A stretch of 38,448 nucleotides of DNA, taken from positions 1 to 38,448 of the forward strand of contig JACOSX010000058.1 of the NCBI GenBank assembly GCA_016178625.1. The letters run 5' to 3'. The position numbers were made by a program, and so were the translations under genes. The stretch is from Ignavibacteria bacterium. Its GTDB lineage: Bacteria; Bacteroidota; Ignavibacteria; UBA10030; SZUA-254. A model generated the notes under the pieces. It ran no database searches and was not told the origin of the DNA. It saw only the letters and a program-made list of their open reading frames with translations. Positions 10,974 through 32,440 of the stretch are shown piece after piece (the first letter of the stretch is position 1; each line of letters opens with the position of its first letter).

Positions 10974-13900
10974 CTATTTCATGAGTACCATCTTCCGCGT
11001 CTCATGAAATTCATGCTTATCTTCCCCAAGAGCGAAGAATCTATAAAAGTACAGACCGGATGCCAAATTGGAAGCGTTCAGTGTGAGAGCATGTTTTCCT
11101 GCTACATACTCCTGGTGATCGACGAGACTTGCCACTTCCTGACCGAGGATATTGAAAATCTTGATGGTCACAATTGACTGTATTGGTAAATCGAACTCAA
11201 TCCTTGTTATTGGATTGAATGGATTCGGATAATTCTGGTGCAGGGCAAAGTCTCTTGGTACATTTGGGAACGATTCGGTGCTGAGCGTGATTGATTTGAC
11301 CTCGGAATCATACACTTGTACTGAGCCGTCGTGAGTTGACGCGAATGAATGAAGAGACGCGCCGGTTGCAGCATTACTCAACTTGAGTGACCGCAAAGAA
11401 GGTTGACTCATATGCCACCTTATTGTGATCGGATACGAAAATGCCTGAATGTTGATAGACAAAGACTGGTGAGCATCAGTAAGTAATCCGACTAGATTGT
11501 TCGACGTGAACCGGGCGTCAAACCCTCCTTGTGGGGGCAAGGGAGGGAGTTCATATTCCTCTTGGGAGAATGATCGGTTTTCCGGAGTTCCAAAGTAAAG
11601 AGTCTGAGCGTGCCCCTCTCGGTCGGTGATTGTCAGTGTGTTGAATTGCTGCAACTCATTGGTGAATGGTGCAGTTGCCGCTTGCTTCGGTGCATTCGAA
11701 GTGCCATTGAGAACAAGCTTTCCCGTTCCTGATATCTTGATCCAGTAAGCTTTCGCCGATCGGATCGAATCACTAATTGCATAGCTGCCGTTGAAGCTAA
11801 AGTAATTGCTGTGCACGATGCCTGCAGGGATTTGTTGCACACTGCCAGCCGCCACAGGTGAAGAAATAGATCCAATCATATTCCACCCGTCTACCACCGT
11901 AATAGTGTCAGTGAGTCGTGGAAAACCTTCCATAGGAACGTCTTGGGCAGTCGCAAACTTGACCCAGTATCCTCGACCGTTCTTCAACGTATCCGCAACA
12001 AAGTATGTGTTTGAGAATCCAAAGGCATTTGAAATCGCAGAAGGAAATACCTTAACCTTTCTGCTGTTGGTCATGGTTAGAGGAATGGAGACCATGTTCC
12101 AGCTCGCGATGAACGAGTAGTAGTTCGGTGATTTGTGTGAGATCTCAAACGAGGTCACCGACGAATTGGTAATTGCAAACGAGTTCTGGGTTTTCATGTT
12201 GATAGAGAACACGGATCCATGAGTACCGGCGTCCCGGAGGACAAACGTTCCGAGAGGGAAGTAACTGTTGTTCCAAGTAAGCGTAACCGGATATCCCCCA
12301 GGTCCCGCCTGTAGGGAACCCGTATACAGATTCTCTTGATGGGTGGGGGTCACAAGGTCGCGCAAATCAATGAGAGTTCCTCGAGTTGGTGGGATCGACC
12401 AACGACCGTCGAAAGCCCCGGGCGGTGGCGATGAGGGAAGCTCCGTTTCGCCAAACTGGGGATCGATTCCGTCGGTGGCTCCAGAGATCGCTCCGAACTG
12501 TAACGTGTCGATCCCGGACCCATTGTTACGAATGATCAGTGTATCGGTGAATTCGAAAGGATGCTTGTAAATATAATCCATCCTTCCGAGATACCAGCTC
12601 GAGAATCTCTTCACGGAGTCGAGGGAGATCGCAACGAGATCACTGTCGATGTAATCCGTCTTCCCCATATTCGTGATGATGCCACTTGAGTCACGGAATA
12701 GTGCGAGATTGTCAATCGAGATTTGTGTCTCAGCGGTATCGTAACGCAAGGACATCAAGGAGAGATAGTTGCTTCCACCTTTCGCCGTAATTTTATAGGA
12801 CCGTTTCACGGAGATCGAGTCGGGAAGTCGCGGCGGCGGAGAGTTGGGATAGACTGTCATCAGGATAGTATCAGGTTCGGTTCCTGTCGGATAAAACTGG
12901 AGATAGGTAATCGGACTCTCAAACCGATATTGTTGAGTTGACCCCTGACGGATTGCTCGCTTGACGGTTCCGGCTTTCATTATCCCGCTTCCCTGGAATG
13001 CTTGTGGATCCGAATTCAAAATCGTGAGAGTATCAATCGGACGGAGGCTCAAATTCCCGATCGCTGAGAAATTATTCTTCACGTCGATGTTGCCGGCTGA
13101 CGATATGTTTGTGCCATCTGCGATAAAGAGATTATAGAATTTTCCATTGACCTGTCCGGTGTTCGATAACGAGACAGTTGATCGTGAAGGAATCAATATT
13201 CCCGCGGTGCCCACGAGGAAATTTCCGCCCGTGACGATTTCGATACTAGATAATGGATCGATCTCTAATGTCCCATCAATAGCGATGTCGCCCTTCACGA
13301 CGAGCTGGCTTAACCCGATACCGATCGTCAGCTTTGTTCCTGCAGCAATCCGCAATCCCGCGAGATTAATCTGTTGCTGCGTCACGCGCAAGATCGGCTT
13401 ATTTGTAGTGGCTGGGATATATACACTATCGAGCTTTTCCGGTGGACCTGCGGGGCTCCAGTTACTGGGAGTTGTCCAGAGGGTGTCTACCGCGCCCGTC
13501 CACCTACGCACTGGCAAAGGGGAAACACCAGAACAAACTATTGTTCCACCGAGGCCCGCGGCAAAAAGTGCCCCACCGCCTGTGCCTGCTCGAACGAACT
13601 GAACATCCCATAATGTGTGAGTCGTGGCGCTGCTCTGAACGTTCCATGTTGTACCAGCGTCGATTGTTTTGATCACCGTCCCATCGTCACCCACTGCCCA
13701 CCCGGTCGATGGCGAAGCGAACGTTACTCCATAGAAACTTGCGTCGTTGTTGGTGGTCTGCGTTATCCACGTGGTTCCACCATTCGTCGTATAGAGAACC
13801 AGTCCGAAATCTCCGACGACGTACACTTTATTGGCGTCAATGATCTCCAAAGAATAAAGGGTGCGAGTGGTGGTGCTGGTTTGGTTAACCCACGTATGAC

Positions 13901-20473: not shown

Positions 20474-21349
20474 CTACGCTATCGCTGGTTCGACGAGGCG
20501 GATATCCAAGATACGATCGACACGGAAATTCCTTTCGGCTTGGGCAGAATGACAAAAGGCTTCGAGGTATGTTGTCCCATTTCTACTAGTTGCATCTGTA
20601 TTGCATGTTTTAGGCGTAATGATTCGATCCGTGATCTCAGCGTTAGTGGGAGAGAGATACTTGATCCAGAGGTTTGTGTGGCGTGTGAGGGCTTCGTTCA
20701 CAATTGTCATGCGTCGTGTCAGGAAGGTTTGCGCCAGATCTCGGCGGAGAAGGTCAGCGCACGTGTGACAACCATGTGCTTTGAGGATAGATATGAAGAT
20801 GATAAACAACTGTGCTGTTACCATTGTATCGTCGAACGCCCGATGCTTGACGGGAAAAGGAATGCCCAGAATTCGCGCAACGTTTTCCTGTGGGTATTTG
20901 CCTATGCCCGGAAGGAGTTGACGTGCCAAGGGCAGAGCATCGATAACCGTGTTGTTGATCTCTCGAAAACCGGCCAATCGGAATTCATTTGTCAAAAATG
21001 AGAGATCGAATGGTGCATTGTACGCAACGAGAATACTCGTATCCATCATTCTCTGGAAACGTTCGGCAACCGCCGAAAAGGTTGGTGCATTGAAGAGCAT
21101 CGTCGGGGATATTCGATTCACGGCATAGGCCCCCGCAGATATGGGTCGCTGTGGGTCGATAAGGCTGGTAAACGTATCCACCACTGCTCCGCCACGCAGC
21201 TTCACTGCCCCAAGTTCGCATACTCTATCCCCCGTTTCAACGGCGAGGCCGGTCGTTTCCACGTCGACGACAAGAAAGTCAACGTCGTCGATATGATGAT
21301 TGATGAGGGATTTCTTAGACGGTCTGGGTCTCATCCGTTCTCGGTTCAA
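20474..21349 (-). CDS. DnaQ-family DEDDh 3'-5' exonuclease with C-terminal WYL-like domain
   Basis: FLVVDVETTGL, ILVAYNAPFDLSFL, KHRAFDDTMVTAQL exonuclease motifs; C-term IKYLSPTNAEITDRIITP...GTTYLEAFCHSAQAERNFRVDRILDIRLVE is WYL-like. Confidence 0.85.
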   Translation of the reverse strand: MNRERMRPRPSKKSLINHHIDDVDFLVVDVETTGLAVETGDRVCELGAVKLRGGAVVDTFTSLIDPQRPISAGAYAVNRISPTMLFNAPTFSAVAERFQRMMDTSILVAYNAPFDLSFLTNEFRLAGFREINNTVIDALPLARQLLPGIGKYPQENVARILGIPFPVKHRAFDDTMVTAQLFIIFISILKAHGCHTCADLLRRDLAQTFLTRRMTIVNEALTRHTNLWIKYLSPTNAEITDRIITPKTCNTDATSRNGTTYLEAFCHSAQAERNFRVDRILDIRLVEPAIA

Positions 21350-22021: not shown

Positions 22022-22684
22022 TCAGGTCTCTCTTTCTGAAGAAGGTTCGTTGTAAAACAGTGTCTGAAGCACAGGTGAAATTATTGACCAGGCAAAACCC
22101 CGGCGAGCAAGAGCTTGGGCCAGTCTTTTTCGCTGCTTATCTTGATCGATCTTTTTACGAGAATTGCCGTATCGTTCGACAAGTTTCTTCGCCGCATCAA
22201 GAGCGGCGTTTTGTTCTGTTTCTTCACTCAGGGTTTCTGTGAGGACGTCACGGATGATGGAGGGGGAAATTCCCTTTTCTCGAAGCCGATGATGAAGGAG
22301 TTTTCGCCCAGAGGCTTTCTTTATTTGCGCATCATGTACAAGGGCGCGTGCAAACTCTTCGTCATTAACGAAGCCGAGAGACTGCAAATGTGCCATTACG
22401 CGGTCAACAACAAGCGGTCGGAATTCCTTCTCAAGAAGCCGTTGACGGAGTTCTTTTTGACTTCGCCTCCGGTAACTGACAAGACGTAGGGCTTTCTGTT
22501 TGGCACGGCTGTACTCCTCCTCAGCCATGATTGCCTCCACCATTGCCTGATCGATGGTATCTCCCTTACGAATTCTAAACTGGGTGAGAACTTCCGGGTG
22601 GATACCGAAAGCAAATTCCCCGTCGAGGAAGAGATTGGCGCGGTTGAGGTGACGCTTTTGTCGAGTAATACTTGTGACGATCAT
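22022..22684 (-). CDS. recX: Regulatory protein RecX
   Basis: ALRLVSYRRRSQKELRQRLLEKEF, SLGFVNDEEFARALVHD; adjacent to recA. Confidence 0.92.
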   Translation of the reverse strand: MIVTSITRQKRHLNRANLFLDGEFAFGIHPEVLTQFRIRKGDTIDQAMVEAIMAEEEYSRAKQKALRLVSYRRRSQKELRQRLLEKEFRPLVVDRVMAHLQSLGFVNDEEFARALVHDAQIKKASGRKLLHHRLREKGISPSIIRDVLTETLSEETEQNAALDAAKKLVERYGNSRKKIDQDKQRKRLAQALARRGFAWSIISPVLQTLFYNEPSSERET

Positions 22685-22702: not shown

Positions 22703-23700
22703 TCACGCTTTGACGAGCTTCTTAGCACCGTCTATCGGTTTTACAGTTGTCTCTACTTTTGGATGTTTTGTTTGGTCATCCTCAATCAAGCCAAGTTTTT
22801 TTCTCAGGGAGTGATCAACCTCCTTTGCGATCTTCTCGTTTTCCTGGAGATAACGTTTGACGGCATCACGACCTTGACCCACACGTTCTCCGCCGTACGC
22901 GAACCATGATCCGCTCTTCGAGATGATATTCTGATCCACTGCAGTATCGATGAGATCTCCAAGTTTAGAGATTCCTTCATTGTAGAGAATGTCGAATTGC
23001 ACTTCCCTAAACGGCGGTGCGACCTTATTCTTCACGACCTTCACCTTCACGCGGTTGCCGACAACGTTATTGCCCTCTTTGATGGCTTCGATGCGCCGGA
23101 CATCAAGCCGGACGGAGGCATAGAACTTGAGCGCGTTGCCACCTGTGGTCGTTTCGGGGTTGCCGAACATGATGCCAATCTTCTGCCGCAGTTGATTCGT
23201 GAACATCACCGATGTCTTCGATTTGCTGATTGCGGCTGTGAGTTTTCGCAACGCTTGCGACATCAACCGAGCCTGAACACCCATCTACGCACTAATGTCT
23301 CGACGATTTCCAACGCCTGTTCTCCGTATTCAGGTTGTGAAAGCATCAGGTTGTTGACGTCGACGCCCAATTTTTTAGCGTAGGCAATATCGAGGGCGTG
23401 TTCCGTATCGATAAACGCGGCGATACCGTGCTTGCGCTGAGCCTCTGCGATGACGTGTAAACAGATTGTCGTTTTGCCGGAGGATTCCGGTCCGAAAATT
23501 TCGATGACGCGTCCGCGAGGAATACCGCCAATGCCAATTGCAGCATCGAGTGAGATTGATCCGGTCGAAATCGAGTCGATCTTTGTAATGGGGCCCTCAT
23601 CGAGCTTCATGATCGCCCCTTTGCCGTGTTGCTTTTCAATCTGCTCAATGGCAATGCGAAGCGCCTGCATTCGCGCTTCTCTATTCATATCTTCTGACAT
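22703..23700 (-). pseudogene. recA: Recombinase RecA, disrupted by internal deletion and frameshift
   Basis: N part (23263..23700) with GPESSGKTT Walker A runs to ETLVR then frame is lost; C part (22703..~23283) resumes at [15 protein letters not shown]; intervening ~29 codons absent. Confidence 0.9.
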
Positions 23701-23767: not shown

Positions 23768-24172
23768 CTACACTCTCTTAAAACGCATCAACAAATCCAG
23801 AACGATCCTCTTGACATCCTCCGAGTTGATCGGCTTCTCGACGTAATCGTCTGCACCGATCTCGCGTGCGGTACGTTTGGCATCGAGGTCATCAATCGAC
23901 GACATAAAGACGTAAGGTACACTCTTGAGTCGTGGATCGCTCTTGACTTTCTCAAACAGATCGAAACCATTCATGAACGGCATCCGCACATCGCTCATGA
24001 TCAAGTCGGGTTTCTTGCGCTTCAACACCTTTAAGGCTGCCTCGCCGCTGTCTGCGGTGATCACTTTGAACGACGCTTCTTGAACTGCCATTCGGATAGC
24101 GTCCAGCCAGGGAGATTCATCATCGATGAACAGAACCGTTTGCGATTTTGGTTTCGATTTATCCCGTGTCAT
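23768..24172 (-). CDS. Single-domain response regulator (CheY-like REC)
   Basis: VLFIDDESPWL, PDLIMSDVRMPFMNG, YVEKPINSEDV. Confidence 0.93.
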   Translation of the reverse strand: MTRDKSKPKSQTVLFIDDESPWLDAIRMAVQEASFKVITADSGEAALKVLKRKKPDLIMSDVRMPFMNGFDLFEKVKSDPRLKSVPYVFMSSIDDLDAKRTAREIGADDYVEKPINSEDVKRIVLDLLMRFKRV

Positions 24173-24192: not shown

Positions 24193-24753
24193 TTATAGAT
24201 GAATTGATTTTAACACTGAATACTCCGCTCCCTCAGATTTCAACACACTCCGCATCACAAAGATTCCATCGAGATGTGCTTTCCGTGGCTCAAAGGTAAG
24301 CTTTTCCAGCATGGGAGTCAAGTGACGTAGTCGGTTTTCACTTCGCACGCGCCCTAACGTAATATGAGGATGAAACATCCGTTTCTCGATCTCAAAACCA
24401 AACTGCACAAGGTTCTTGTCCAAAGAATCTTTTATTCGCAGAAGTGTTCCATCAGGATTATCGCAGCCAATCCAGATTACCCGAGGATGGCTCTTGTTGG
24501 GAAAAGATCCAAGTGAGTAAAACGTGACCTCAAACGGACGGAAAGGAAGCATAGTGGTCTCGATTGTCGAGAGAATTACTGGCATCATTGATTCCTCAAC
24601 GTCGCCAAGAAATTTAATTGTGGCGTGAAACTTCTCAGCGCACTCCCATTTGACATCGGCACCCGACTTTTTTAGGTTATCTTGCAGCACCTTCATATCG
24701 TTGCGGAGGGGCTCTGGGGCATTGAACGCGATGAATGTCCTGATAAACGCCAT
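24193..24753 (-). CDS. thpR: RNA 2',3'-cyclic phosphodiesterase
   Basis: Two HxT(I/L) motifs: HATIKFLG and HITLGRV. Confidence 0.92.
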   Translation of the reverse strand: MAFIRTFIAFNAPEPLRNDMKVLQDNLKKSGADVKWECAEKFHATIKFLGDVEESMMPVILSTIETTMLPFRPFEVTFYSLGSFPNKSHPRVIWIGCDNPDGTLLRIKDSLDKNLVQFGFEIEKRMFHPHITLGRVRSENRLRHLTPMLEKLTFEPRKAHLDGIFVMRSVLKSEGAEYSVLKSIHL

Positions 24754-24756
24754 ACA

Positions 24757-25998
24757 CTATTCGATTTTCAGAATCATTCTTCTCACCAGTTCCATAGCCG
24801 CTTGTGAAGCGCGTTCCTTAGTACGGAGTCGGTCGTTGCCGAACTGGAATTTCAGTGCGATCGCCTGGCGGCTATCAGAATATCCAATCCAGACCAATCC
24901 GATTGGTTTTTCAGTCGAGCCGCCGGAGGGACCGGCGATCCCCGTTGTCGACATGCCAATATCAACGTTTGCTTGTAGGCGGATGCAGAGTGCCATCGCT
25001 TCCGCAACTTCCCGGCTGACCGCACCATGCTTCTCGATCAATTCTCTTGGGACGCCAAGGAGGTCAATCTTCGATTGGTTGCTGTAGGTAACGAGCGCGC
25101 GATCCAAATAATGAGAGCTCCCCGGGACGTTTGTGATTTTGTGCGCTATCATTCCACCTGTACACGATTCTGCGATAGCGATCCTGAGCTTCCGTTCGGC
25201 GAGAAGTCTACCAAGAACCTCTTCAAGTTCCTCGTCGTTGACGCCGTAAATAAATTTCTCAGCCTCCGCACGGATACGTGATTCAATCCTCAGAAGCTTC
25301 TGCTCACATCGGACACGATCCGAGCCAACTACGGTGATTCTCATCCGTACGCCGGTGGGGGCCGGAAGAAAGGCGAGCTTTTCTCCCTCGAGCAACTCAT
25401 CAAGGTTACCCAAGCGGGTTGCCAACACTGACTCAGAGATGCCAGTAGTCATCAAGGTCTTGTGAAGAATGATCTTACCGGTAGCTTTCTGTTGGAAGAA
25501 TGGAACAACAAATTCATTCACCATCGCTTCCATTTCGTACGGAACACCGGGCATGACAACAACGAACTTATTGTCGCGCTCAAAGAGTTCACCCGGTGCG
25601 GTACCGTGTCGGTTGGAAATCACGGTCGCCCCTCGAGGGATGAGTGTCTGATTTTCGGCAGCTTCGGACCACGGATGATTTCGCGCTTTCATGAACGCCT
25701 CGATATTGTTTCGCGCTTCGTTATCCGATATCAAGTCGGTGTGGAAGAATTTGCAGATCGCACTTCTTGTGATATCATCATGCGTGGGTCCAAGTCCCCC
25801 CGTGACGATGACAACATCGAAACGAGGGTACTCCTCCTCGAGGCTTTTAAGAATTTGGCTCTCGTCGTCTGAAACCGTAACGATCCGGGTTACCTCGATG
25901 CCGATACTATTAAGCTTCCCGGCGATGAGGGAGGCGTTTGTGTTCACTACCTGCCCCATGAGCAGTTCATCGCCGATTGTGATGATTACCGAGTTCAT
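24757..25998 (-). CDS. cinA: CinA family protein (nicotinamide-nucleotide amidase/MoaB-like)
   Basis: MNSVIITIGDELLMGQVVNTNA, VTGGLGPTHDD, IAESCTGGMIAHKIT...GIAGPSGG; start trimmed to ATG at 25998. Confidence 0.94.
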   Translation of the reverse strand: MNSVIITIGDELLMGQVVNTNASLIAGKLNSIGIEVTRIVTVSDDESQILKSLEEEYPRFDVVIVTGGLGPTHDDITRSAICKFFHTDLISDNEARNNIEAFMKARNHPWSEAAENQTLIPRGATVISNRHGTAPGELFERDNKFVVVMPGVPYEMEAMVNEFVVPFFQQKATGKIILHKTLMTTGISESVLATRLGNLDELLEGEKLAFLPAPTGVRMRITVVGSDRVRCEQKLLRIESRIRAEAEKFIYGVNDEELEEVLGRLLAERKLRIAIAESCTGGMIAHKITNVPGSSHYLDRALVTYSNQSKIDLLGVPRELIEKHGAVSREVAEAMALCIRLQANVDIGMSTTGIAGPSGGSTEKPIGLVWIGYSDSRQAIALKFQFGNDRLRTKERASQAAMELVRRMILKIE

Positions 25999-26075
25999 AT
26001 CAAGTTGCTTTTCGTTAAGAAGAGTATACAATCCGAGAACACCCTTACCTCACCATTCCAACTTCATAAGGAGTG

Positions 26076-27270: not shown

Positions 27271-30172
27271 TCACTTCATAAGCAACATCTTTTTGATGTC
27301 GGAGTAGTTGCCCGCTTGCATGCGGTAGAAGTACATACCGCTGGGGAGAGTGCTAGCATCAAACTGAATTGTCTTGTATCCGGCAGCTTCGAACCCATCA
27401 ACCAATGTTGCTATTTCTTGGCCAAGGACATCGTAGACCTTTAGAGTAACATGAACATCCTCAGCAAGATCGTATTTGATTTCTGTCGTGGGATTGAAAG
27501 GATTCGGATAGTTTGGTAGTAATCTTGTTTCCTGCGGCAATCCTTCCGCAATGTCAGGTCGAATTGCTGTCTTTTGCTGCACCACACTTTTCACGCTCTT
27601 TTTATCAGAATAATTTGCGCGCCTGATCTCGTAAAACTACTCCGTGTTCGGGGGAGGATCGCCTTTTCCCGCTACGATGACATCCACGTCGGTATACGGT
27701 GATGCGGTTACCGTTGCGATCACAGGGTACGGGGTCGATTCTGGATGAGGATTGCAATCACCGCCAGGATACACACAGGAATACCTGCAGATTTTATAGA
27801 GTGCACTGGAGGTTGGATCCGATGTCCAGCTTAAGACAGGATGCTTGTTGGCGTCGGTTGTAATCGTCAGCGTCATCGTCTGTGAAGCAGAAATGGTAAA
27901 GGATGATCCCGTTGCAAAATCAGTTTCGCCTGCGACGTTATTGGCAGCTACTCTCCAATAATATGTAGTGTTGTTGATCAGGTTAGTTGGTGAGTATGAA
28001 GTACCTGTCACGGCAGAGAGATCTGATAATAAATTGGTGAAACCTGAATTATAGGATATTTGGAGATGGTACGCCGTTGCGGTCGAAACTGAACCCCACG
28101 ACAACGAGACGTCGAACTTCGTGCCATTCGTTACAGTGGGCGATGAAGGAGATGCTGCTGGTTCAGCAATTTTAAATGATCCTTTATCCGTTGCAACATA
28201 CATCGTTCCCGTTGTTGATCCCTCACCAAAAACGTTATTGATTGGAGTGGGAAGATTGCCTGTCACGTCGAACCATGTACTCCCTGCATCGGGGGAGTAA
28301 TACAATTTACTTCCGTCATCAGGTATTGCAGCGATGTACGTATTGGCTGAGCCGACGCCCGGACACATGGCTACTTTTTTGTGCGCTCCACCGCGAACGC
28401 TAACCCATGAACCAGATGCACCGTAATTGTTGTTTTTCCATACGCCCAAGGCACCGGCGTTAGCTGCTGCATAGACATTTTGTGCGTTGTTCGGGTTCAA
28501 AGCGAGTGAACGTACGTTAGCAGTGGATGAAAAAAAGACCTGAGACCAGGTGCTTGCTGCATCCGTGGAACGGTAGACACCTTTATTGTTCATAGCAGCG
28601 AGTACGTTCTGGGAAAGTCCGGAAAACTGACTTGAAGGATCGACAACCATATCTTGCACGGTGGTGTACGTTCCACTAATAAGAGGACGATTATGCGTCC
28701 ATGTGCCACCCGCATCATTGCTGTAATCCCAATTTCGTTGACTACCGTCGGTATACGCACAATACATACACCCGATTGTAATTTATGGGATCGATGACTG
28801 TTCCATAAAAATTTGTCCCCGATGTGGTAGACGGCTGGAATTGATTGGGATAGGTGCTTCCGCCATCGAAGCTGCGATAGAGAGTAGCGACATTACTGAC
28901 GGCTCCGGCAGCATAAAGCGTGTCGGCTCCGCCGCCGAGGTCTTTCGCGATCCGTTCGCCGCTAAAGGATCCTTCTCCGAGCGGCACACGGCTCCACGTC
29001 GTTCCGTCATATTTGCTGGCGTAGGTGAAATCTTTTGAGACTGTCCAAGTAAGAGTTGGTGATGCTGCAACTGAGGAGAGTGACATACGACCGAGGCCTG
29101 TTGTTGTCTCAGTCCAGTTTGTTCCTCCATTGGTTGTCTTATACAGAGAAGTTACTGCACCCACATACATCGTGCTCTGGCTGTTCGGTACAATTGTCAG
29201 CGAAAGCAAATTATTGTCCGTCATTCCAGTGCCATTGTCACTTGTCCACGTGGAACCATCATCCGCTGAAAGATAGATGCCGTTATTCGCAGTAGCATAG
29301 AACTGACCGACATCGCTTCTAAATCGGATCGCTGTTATTGACGTTACACCGGTTGCTGGCGTCGTTGGAGTACTCCAAGTATCTCCATTGTCTGTGGATC
29401 GGGATACTTTGCCCGATGCAGTGCCGACGACAAGACGAGGGTTGTTGCCTGAGCCCATATCGCGGACACCGATGGCTTTCACATTGAACGCTCCCATGTT
29501 TTTCTGGCTCCACGTTTGCCCCAGATCGGCTGACCACCACACTCCTCGAGTTACTGCTGAGGCCTGTTGGTTTGTTCCTTCTGCAGTGCCATCCGAGCCG
29601 ACTGCATAGACATACTGGTCATGCCCCACCCCAGATACGAGGTACGGTGCAATATCGTTGACGCTGGTAGCGTAGGTGAAGTTATCCCTCACGAACCATA
29701 TGGCTCCTCCATTCGAGCTATAGTACAAAGATTTACTCCCACTCACAAACTGTCTCCCCAAATACATATTATCGGTAGCCCCTGCAATTGGTGACACTGC
29801 AAGACGAAGGGGAGTGAGGGTTGCATCAATCAAACTTTGACTCCAAGTACTACCACCATCAGTGCTTGAGTACAGATAGCCTGTTACACCTGTTACTACG
29901 ACATTAGCATTATCCGGTTGGCATGTTACAACAAGTGGTGAAGGACGTTCAACAGCAGTTGTCGCCCACGACGAGCCGCTGTTTGTGGATTTGAACAAGA
30001 ATGCTTTATCCGCCGCGTAGAGTGTAGTGCCCGCAGTATTGATTGCGATGTCCTTTTCGTCTCGTGCTTGCCATGGACCGTTGAGGGTGGTATAGGTTTG
30101 GGCTGTTGCTAATGATGTGATTATAGAGATTGCAGCAATAACCCATATCGATATTTTTCTTGCGAGAAACAT
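27271..30172 (-). pseudogene. Secreted BNR/sialidase-like and FN3 protein with T9SS sorting domain, interrupted by a frameshift and an in-frame TAG
   Basis: Three successive ORFs (..28742, 28767..27637, 27594..27271) form one logical protein: signal peptide MFLARKISIWVIAAISIITSLATAQ, BNR repeats, FN3, NYPNPFNPTTEIKYDL. Confidence 0.85.
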
Positions 30173-30511: not shown

Positions 30512-32440
30512 TTATCTTAGGATCAGTTTCCCCAGTGCCTTCACCTTCACCCAATAGCTCATGCCCGGCAAGAGTGTATCTGCCACGATGTAAGAACTGC
30601 CGCTGAAGGTGAAGAAGCTTGAAGCGATGATCGTGTCGGGGACTGCCGTGATGTTCGTTCGCGCCACAGGCTGCGACACCGTCCCGATCATGTTCCACCC
30701 TTGCTTGACCGAAAAACTATCTTCAAACACTTTGATCCCCTGAAACTCCTTGACCGAGTCAACGGGCTTTGCAAAGTAGCCCACACCGAACTTCATCGTG
30801 TCACGCTTCTGGTACATCGCCCCATCGAAGGAGAACATCTGCGGCAGTTTCTGCACAGGTCCGGGTTTCACCGGGATGGAGACCATGTTCCATTTCCCTT
30901 GTTGGTAACTGATTGTCTCGCTGTTCCACTTGCTTACTCCGGTGACAGCGAAGCAATCGGGAGAGGATTGTCCGTTGTGGTAGAAGATGATTTTTCCCGC
31001 GTGTGTGCCAAACGTCTTGGGTGTATAGCGAACAGCGAACGGATGGCTGCTTGCAGGAGAAATGGTGTCACTGGGAGGCATGACAGAAAAATTCTCGTTA
31101 TCACTAATGGCTGTCCCGACAATAAGTGGGTCGGTCCCTGTGTTACTGACGGTGACGGTATCGGTGGATGTCTCGTTGATCTCGGTGGTGTCCATCTGCA
31201 CAAGCCCTGTCGAGAGTGAGAAGCTCGCATTACTTGGAATAAGCTCTCCCCTTCGATAAAAGATGCGGAAGGTGGAGCCAACCTTTTCCTCATACACAAT
31301 ATGAATAGCATGAGATGAAATTGCGACTTCATTACCTGGGGTATTTCTTAGCGAGAGGATCGTTTTCGGACAGTAATTCGTGATGGAGTTATTGGTAGCA
31401 CGTATAGCCACGCGAAAGGTATCAGGCGGATTAATCTCTTCAGTCCATGCAACAGCACGGTTGTTTCCATGAATAGCGGCTCGTGGCTCAGACCCTGTTG
31501 GCAGTTTTTCGGTAAGGACATTCTCCGGCAGCCACATCTTCCCGTTAGCAAGACCAGCCCGACTGATAATGCTTGCGCCTAAGAAGCAATAGACACAGCC
31601 GTACTTATCATCTCGCCAGGCGACAAGCAGCTCCGTGCTGCACTTGCTCTGGTAACTGGCGATCGTTGGGATATCGGAAAAATAACCATCCGCTGCAGAA
31701 ACGAGCGTATCAAATGCCCATGAGTCGCCAATATTGGTTGATCTCCTGTACACCACTTCCCCAATATCGTTTATCACTTTGTTTTGAACCATATGAAGAC
31801 TTGAAGGAGAGAGGCTGATGCGGTCTTCGAGATCTGATGTGTTTGGATTAGGATTGATGTTCTCGGTGGTTTTAGACCAAGTCAAGCCACCGTTGCTTGA
31901 GCGAAGGATCCTTCTGTAAAGATCAGGTTCAGGCGGATAGATAAGCGCAATGGTGTCACCGCTCATTGTGGCCCAAGTAATCTCACCTGTTATATCCGGA
32001 CTAATATTCTTAACGCTTCCGAATGTAATTCCGCGATCGATGCTTTTAAGCATTCGCACAGGTGATAGATTAATGTTCGACGGAGAGTCAGCGCTCACAA
32101 AGAATAAATAAACATCGTCTCGCTCTGCTACAATTGCCGGACGATTTGAGCCGTAAGGCAAGTGGACACTATCGGGAAGCATCTCCCTTGTTACCTCAAA
32201 ACTACTACCGCCTGTGACGCTTCTAGCGTAGGGCTGTCTCACACCGCCATAAGCCTCCTCCCAGATCACATGGACCGTATCATCACCAGAAAGAGCAATT
32301 CTGGGTTGATAGGCGTTCTGTGTGCTATCCGAGAGTTGTATCGCTGGGTACCAGACGATGCCGCAGGAGGTGTCTTGGGCGTTTGCCGCAACCTGCGATG
32401 CGATGAAAAAAGCCATGAAACAAATCAACCGTCGAATCAT
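30512..32440 (-). CDS. Secreted BNR/sialidase-like protein with choice-of-anchor/Hydin-type Ig-like domain
   Basis: Signal peptide MIRRLICFMAFFIASQVAANAQ, SSNGGLTW-type repeats, DTVTVSNTGTDPLIVG...HPFAVRYTPKTFGTHAGKI; start trimmed to ATG at 32440. Confidence 0.78.
   Translation of the reverse strand: MIRRLICFMAFFIASQVAANAQDTSCGIVWYPAIQLSDSTQNAYQPRIALSGDDTVHVIWEEAYGGVRQPYARSVTGGSSFEVTREMLPDSVHLPYGSNRPAIVAERDDVYLFFVSADSPSNINLSPVRMLKSIDRGITFGSVKNISPDITGEITWATMSGDTIALIYPPEPDLYRRILRSSNGGLTWSKTTENINPNPNTSDLEDRISLSPSSLHMVQNKVINDIGEVVYRRSTNIGDSWAFDTLVSAADGYFSDIPTIASYQSKCSTELLVAWRDDKYGCVYCFLGASIISRAGLANGKMWLPENVLTEKLPTGSEPRAAIHGNNRAVAWTEEINPPDTFRVAIRATNNSITNYCPKTILSLRNTPGNEVAISSHAIHIVYEEKVGSTFRIFYRRGELIPSNASFSLSTGLVQMDTTEINETSTDTVTVSNTGTDPLIVGTAISDNENFSVMPPSDTISPASSHPFAVRYTPKTFGTHAGKIIFYHNGQSSPDCFAVTGVSKWNSETISYQQGKWNMVSIPVKPGPVQKLPQMFSFDGAMYQKRDTMKFGVGYFAKPVDSVKEFQGIKVFEDSFSVKQGWNMIGTVSQPVARTNITAVPDTIIASSFFTFSGSSYIVADTLLPGMSYWVKVKALGKLILR

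Follow-up and report, generated by a model that had tools for sequence, protein, structure and literature searches.

An 85-nt out-of-frame deletion in the only recA of an Ignavibacteria genome assembly, probably an assembly or read-level artefact

The stretch of DNA analysed here, referred to below as the window, has a length of 38,448 nucleotides and represents one contig (JACOSX010000058.1, C45 in our numbering) of the metagenome-style genome assembly GCA_016178625.1 of an Ignavibacteria bacterium, which comprises 3,359,549 bases in 177 contigs and has an estimated completeness of 97%. The recA gene spans positions 22703-23700 on the minus strand and is present as two adjacent open reading frames (ORFs), 23263-23700 and 22703-23284, surrounded by genes that are also found next to recA in related genomes (Table 1). 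The upstream ORF is RecA-like up to the residues EIVETLVR (last codon CGT, 23287-23289) and then continues out of frame as RWVFRLG, and the downstream ORF opens at the ATG (23284) of the motif MGVQ, which overlaps the upstream ORF. The N-terminal piece matches the RecA profile with an E value of 1.7e-59 and its Walker A motif reads GPESSGKTT.

Table 1. Features of recA and its neighbourhood in the window
Feature	Coordinates	Strand	Evidence
recX, intact, directly downstream of recA	22022..22684	-	Pfam RecX_HTH1-3; single-frame full-length alignment with family relatives
recA, C-terminal part, 193 codons, not in frame with the N-terminal part	22703..23284	-	Pfam RecA (PF00154) positions 157-262 and RecA_C (PF21096) positions 1-57
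Dinucleotide AG left at the junction (2 nt)	23285..23286	-	85 nt of relatives absent between the flanks
recA, N-terminal part, residues 1-138, Walker A included	23287..23700	-	Pfam RecA (PF00154) positions 1-127; RecA proteins of five family members 86-89% identical
Response regulator receiver protein next to recA on its upstream side, intact	23768..24172	-	Domain match; collinear in relatives
2'-5' RNA ligase/LigT-like phosphoesterase, intact	24193..24753	-	Domain match and alignment with relatives
cinA, intact	24757..26031	-	Domain match and alignment with relatives

When the intact RecA proteins of five genomes of the same family were used as tblastn queries, each matched the window twice, collinearly but in different frames, at 23700/23712-23287 and at 23284-22709/22736. 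The identity is 81-89% for both blocks, which leave exactly 29 query residues uncovered; for example, the RecA protein of genome G005 was matched at residues 2-139 and 169-351. The spacing between the two anchors of the junction is 87 nt in all 14 other family genomes (29 residues, in close variants) versus 2 nt here, and the gene is thus 85 nt short and has lost its frame. The junction reads ...GAGACATTAGTGCGT-AG-ATGGGTGTTCAGG or, in a second rendering with its flanks, TTAGTGCGT-AG-ATGGGTGTTCAG. An earlier note, made from the sequence of the window, had described recA as lacking about 29 codons (approximately 85 nt) out of frame and had proposed an alignment with the recA genes of relatives as a check; both the size of the loss and the gap of exactly 29 residues are borne out. 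The absent 85 nt include, by comparison with the 14 family relatives, the Walker B strand VI(V/I)DS with its Asp and the start of loop L1, and 18 of the 29 missing residues are invariant in 46 relatives. The statement that Walker B is lost and that the product encoded here is non-functional also holds. In sum of its domains (PF00154 plus RecA_C), its sequence identity to family members over both halves and its neighbours (recX, response regulator, LigT-like protein and cinA), this is a bacterial RecA locus of the Ignavibacteria-like Bacteroidota branch, which differs from the other family loci in its broken frame and in the absence of these 29 residues. The deletion in the deposited sequence cannot be chance.

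Given that both halves of recA are open and that the second ATG lies within the first ORF, a functional RecA might be imagined to arise from two separate polypeptides or from recoding across the junction. However, recoding cannot supply 29 residues, among them the invariant positions and the Walker B aspartate, that are not encoded at the junction, which rules it out in practice, and the second ATG is merely the conserved Met of MGVQ; we consider functional expression of this kind extremely improbable. A second recA, which the earlier note had offered as a possible explanation, was not found either. A search of the whole assembly with PF00154 returned only the two pieces described above, no other full-length or partial recA being detected, the missing segment used as a query together with the downstream anchor matched only the downstream piece, and a degenerate Walker B pattern had no match in the assembly.

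With regard to the surroundings, recA is the sole disrupted gene among the conserved genes compared in the window, the others aligning in single frames in tblastn searches. General decay of the window was rejected on this ground, none of the other conserved genes compared being split. The retained part of recA is also well preserved: only one of 151 columns that are invariant over 46 related RecA proteins is changed in the 331 retained codons (Asp to Glu), and in leave-one-out controls 9 of the 46 intact recA genes differ at one or more invariant columns. The GC content at third codon positions is similar, with 0.57 in one half and 0.58 in the other. Judged from these codons, the rest of the gene bears no trace of relaxed constraint or decay, and a very recent loss would likewise show none.

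The distribution of intact recA genes in related organisms was also considered. In a first search of the family and order, a full-length RecA match was found in all 39 relatives, none of which belongs to the same genus, and none of them carries the lesion. In the order, 74 other genomes with a completeness of 90% or more were compared: RecA is matched over its full length in 67 of them, and no internal recA deletion was observed in any; in the remaining seven, the gene is cut by contig ends in three (G045, G063 and G068) and had no match at the threshold used in four. A set of 80 loci, not all of which were parsed by a motif script, gives only partial support against a shared deletion. A deletion common to the relatives was accordingly rejected, as it was seen neither in the 39 relatives nor among the order genomes searched. 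The contig end in G068 (contig C89, at 9350) falls inside the same recA segment that is missing here, indicating that metagenome assemblies of this order do break at this place. As recA is a common marker gene, it is of practical relevance that its most conserved segment is one at which such assemblies can break or, as is likely here, misjoin.

Judged by the deleted segment of the 46 relatives, the breakpoints of the junction share at most 1 nt of microhomology on either side. No long repeat was found near the junction, nor do the breakpoints carry a repeat as long as a k-mer. Without a useful repeat, the assembly graph is unlikely to have collapsed in this way, and collapse on a direct repeat was rejected for this reason. 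The junction is compatible with a chimeric read, with a wrong join of two ends at thin coverage, or with a real short deletion.

Several other genes of the assembly help to assess its quality. The ruvB gene is split between the 3′ end of contig C171 and the 5′ start of contig C102, which overlap by exactly 20 bp, as would be expected of a graph broken at low depth. In addition, recG was not found in the assembly, the best match being a frame of 1245 aa that is evidently Mfd, whereas recG is present in the other genomes of the family that are 90% or more complete. Absent here as well is the gene that accompanies recG in six genomes of the family, only a paralogue with 28% identity being found. 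Because recG and its conserved neighbour are missing together, an assembly gap is indicated, and a missing stretch of the chromosome explains their absence better than selective loss; a selective loss of recombination genes was rejected on the same ground. The split ruvB and the absence of recG and its neighbour suggest thin coverage, and spurious pseudogenes have been documented to arise where read coverage is low (PMC11017572).

Taking this evidence together, the 85-nt loss is probably an assembly or read-level deletion artefact, and the recA of the organism itself is very probably ordinary and complete. This reading is favored by the a priori rarity of a broken recA in a genome of normal size, by the pristine state of the rest of the gene, by the restriction of the lesion to a single assembly, by the breakage of order assemblies at the same segment, and by the fragmentary state of the present assembly in other recombination genes. 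On the other hand, rpoB, dnaK and recN are intact in this assembly, so that such errors are not general in it, and as no repeat could explain a graph collapse, an artefact must assume a junction-bearing read or a misjoin. Where recA is highly conserved and coverage is thin, two sequence ends may have been joined without the intervening 85 nt, either through a chimeric read or through a wrong scaffold or gap join, and a misjoin or chimeric read at such a place fits better than repeat collapse. If so, the reads would be expected to contain the missing segment. Of the two alternatives raised in the earlier note, inactivation or assembly artefact, the latter is thus favored, although a collapse in the literal sense is unlikely. 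The case resembles the spurious pseudogenes of low-coverage assemblies (PMC11017572) in that the assembly is fragmented and a single disrupting event affects a gene that is normal in all other respects; that study counts frameshifts and internal stops generally, whereas the event here is an 85-nt deletion. Should the artefact be confirmed, it would be a caution that even a 97%-complete assembly can carry a false recA knock-out.

A real and recent inactivation of recA by an 85-nt deletion, affecting the sequenced population or one of its strains, appears unlikely. Such an event would take the deposited sequence at face value. The junction resembles a simple short deletion with its minimal microhomology, the assembly yielded no other recA, and there are precedents for natural recA inactivation, such as a recA with a stop codon in Borrelia recurrentis and the lack of the gene in Buchnera (PMC2525819; PMC4285135). 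As in those organisms, the sole recA would be non-functional as deposited. However, known recA losses mostly concern host-restricted lineages with wider decay, while here the genome (3.36 Mb) shows no reduction, recX, recN and ruvB all occur in it, neither the retained recA codons nor the neighbourhood show decay, and the loss has no counterpart in the 39 relatives of other genera. These same features (a genome of free-living size, an intact recX, and the presence of recN and ruvB) leave the RecA-independent lifestyle suggested in the earlier note without support. If real, the deletion would abolish homologous recombination and any RecA-dependent SOS response, as natural recA losses do, and it would be unusual for a lineage with a genome of normal size to be recA-null. 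That an Ignavibacteria-like Bacteroidota bacterium with such a genome very recently lost its only RecA by a small deletion, possibly together with recG, seems quite improbable.

Two further observations were made in the window. A gene at 20474-21349 on the minus strand encodes a DEDDh-type 3′-5′ exonuclease (RNase_T) that carries a WYL domain at its C-terminus (43 bits against a cut-off of 21.8); it adjoins a PolB-like exonuclease and recX and is kept in family relatives. Multi-frame tblastn rows other than those of recA correspond to antisense frames or to a C-terminal module common to several different proteins. In the latter case, the ends of several different large proteins (10977-11264, 27274-27540 and 30515-30892, minus strand) share modules of approximately 90-130 residues, which, from their position, probably represent a C-terminal sorting domain, for instance of the kind used in type IX secretion.
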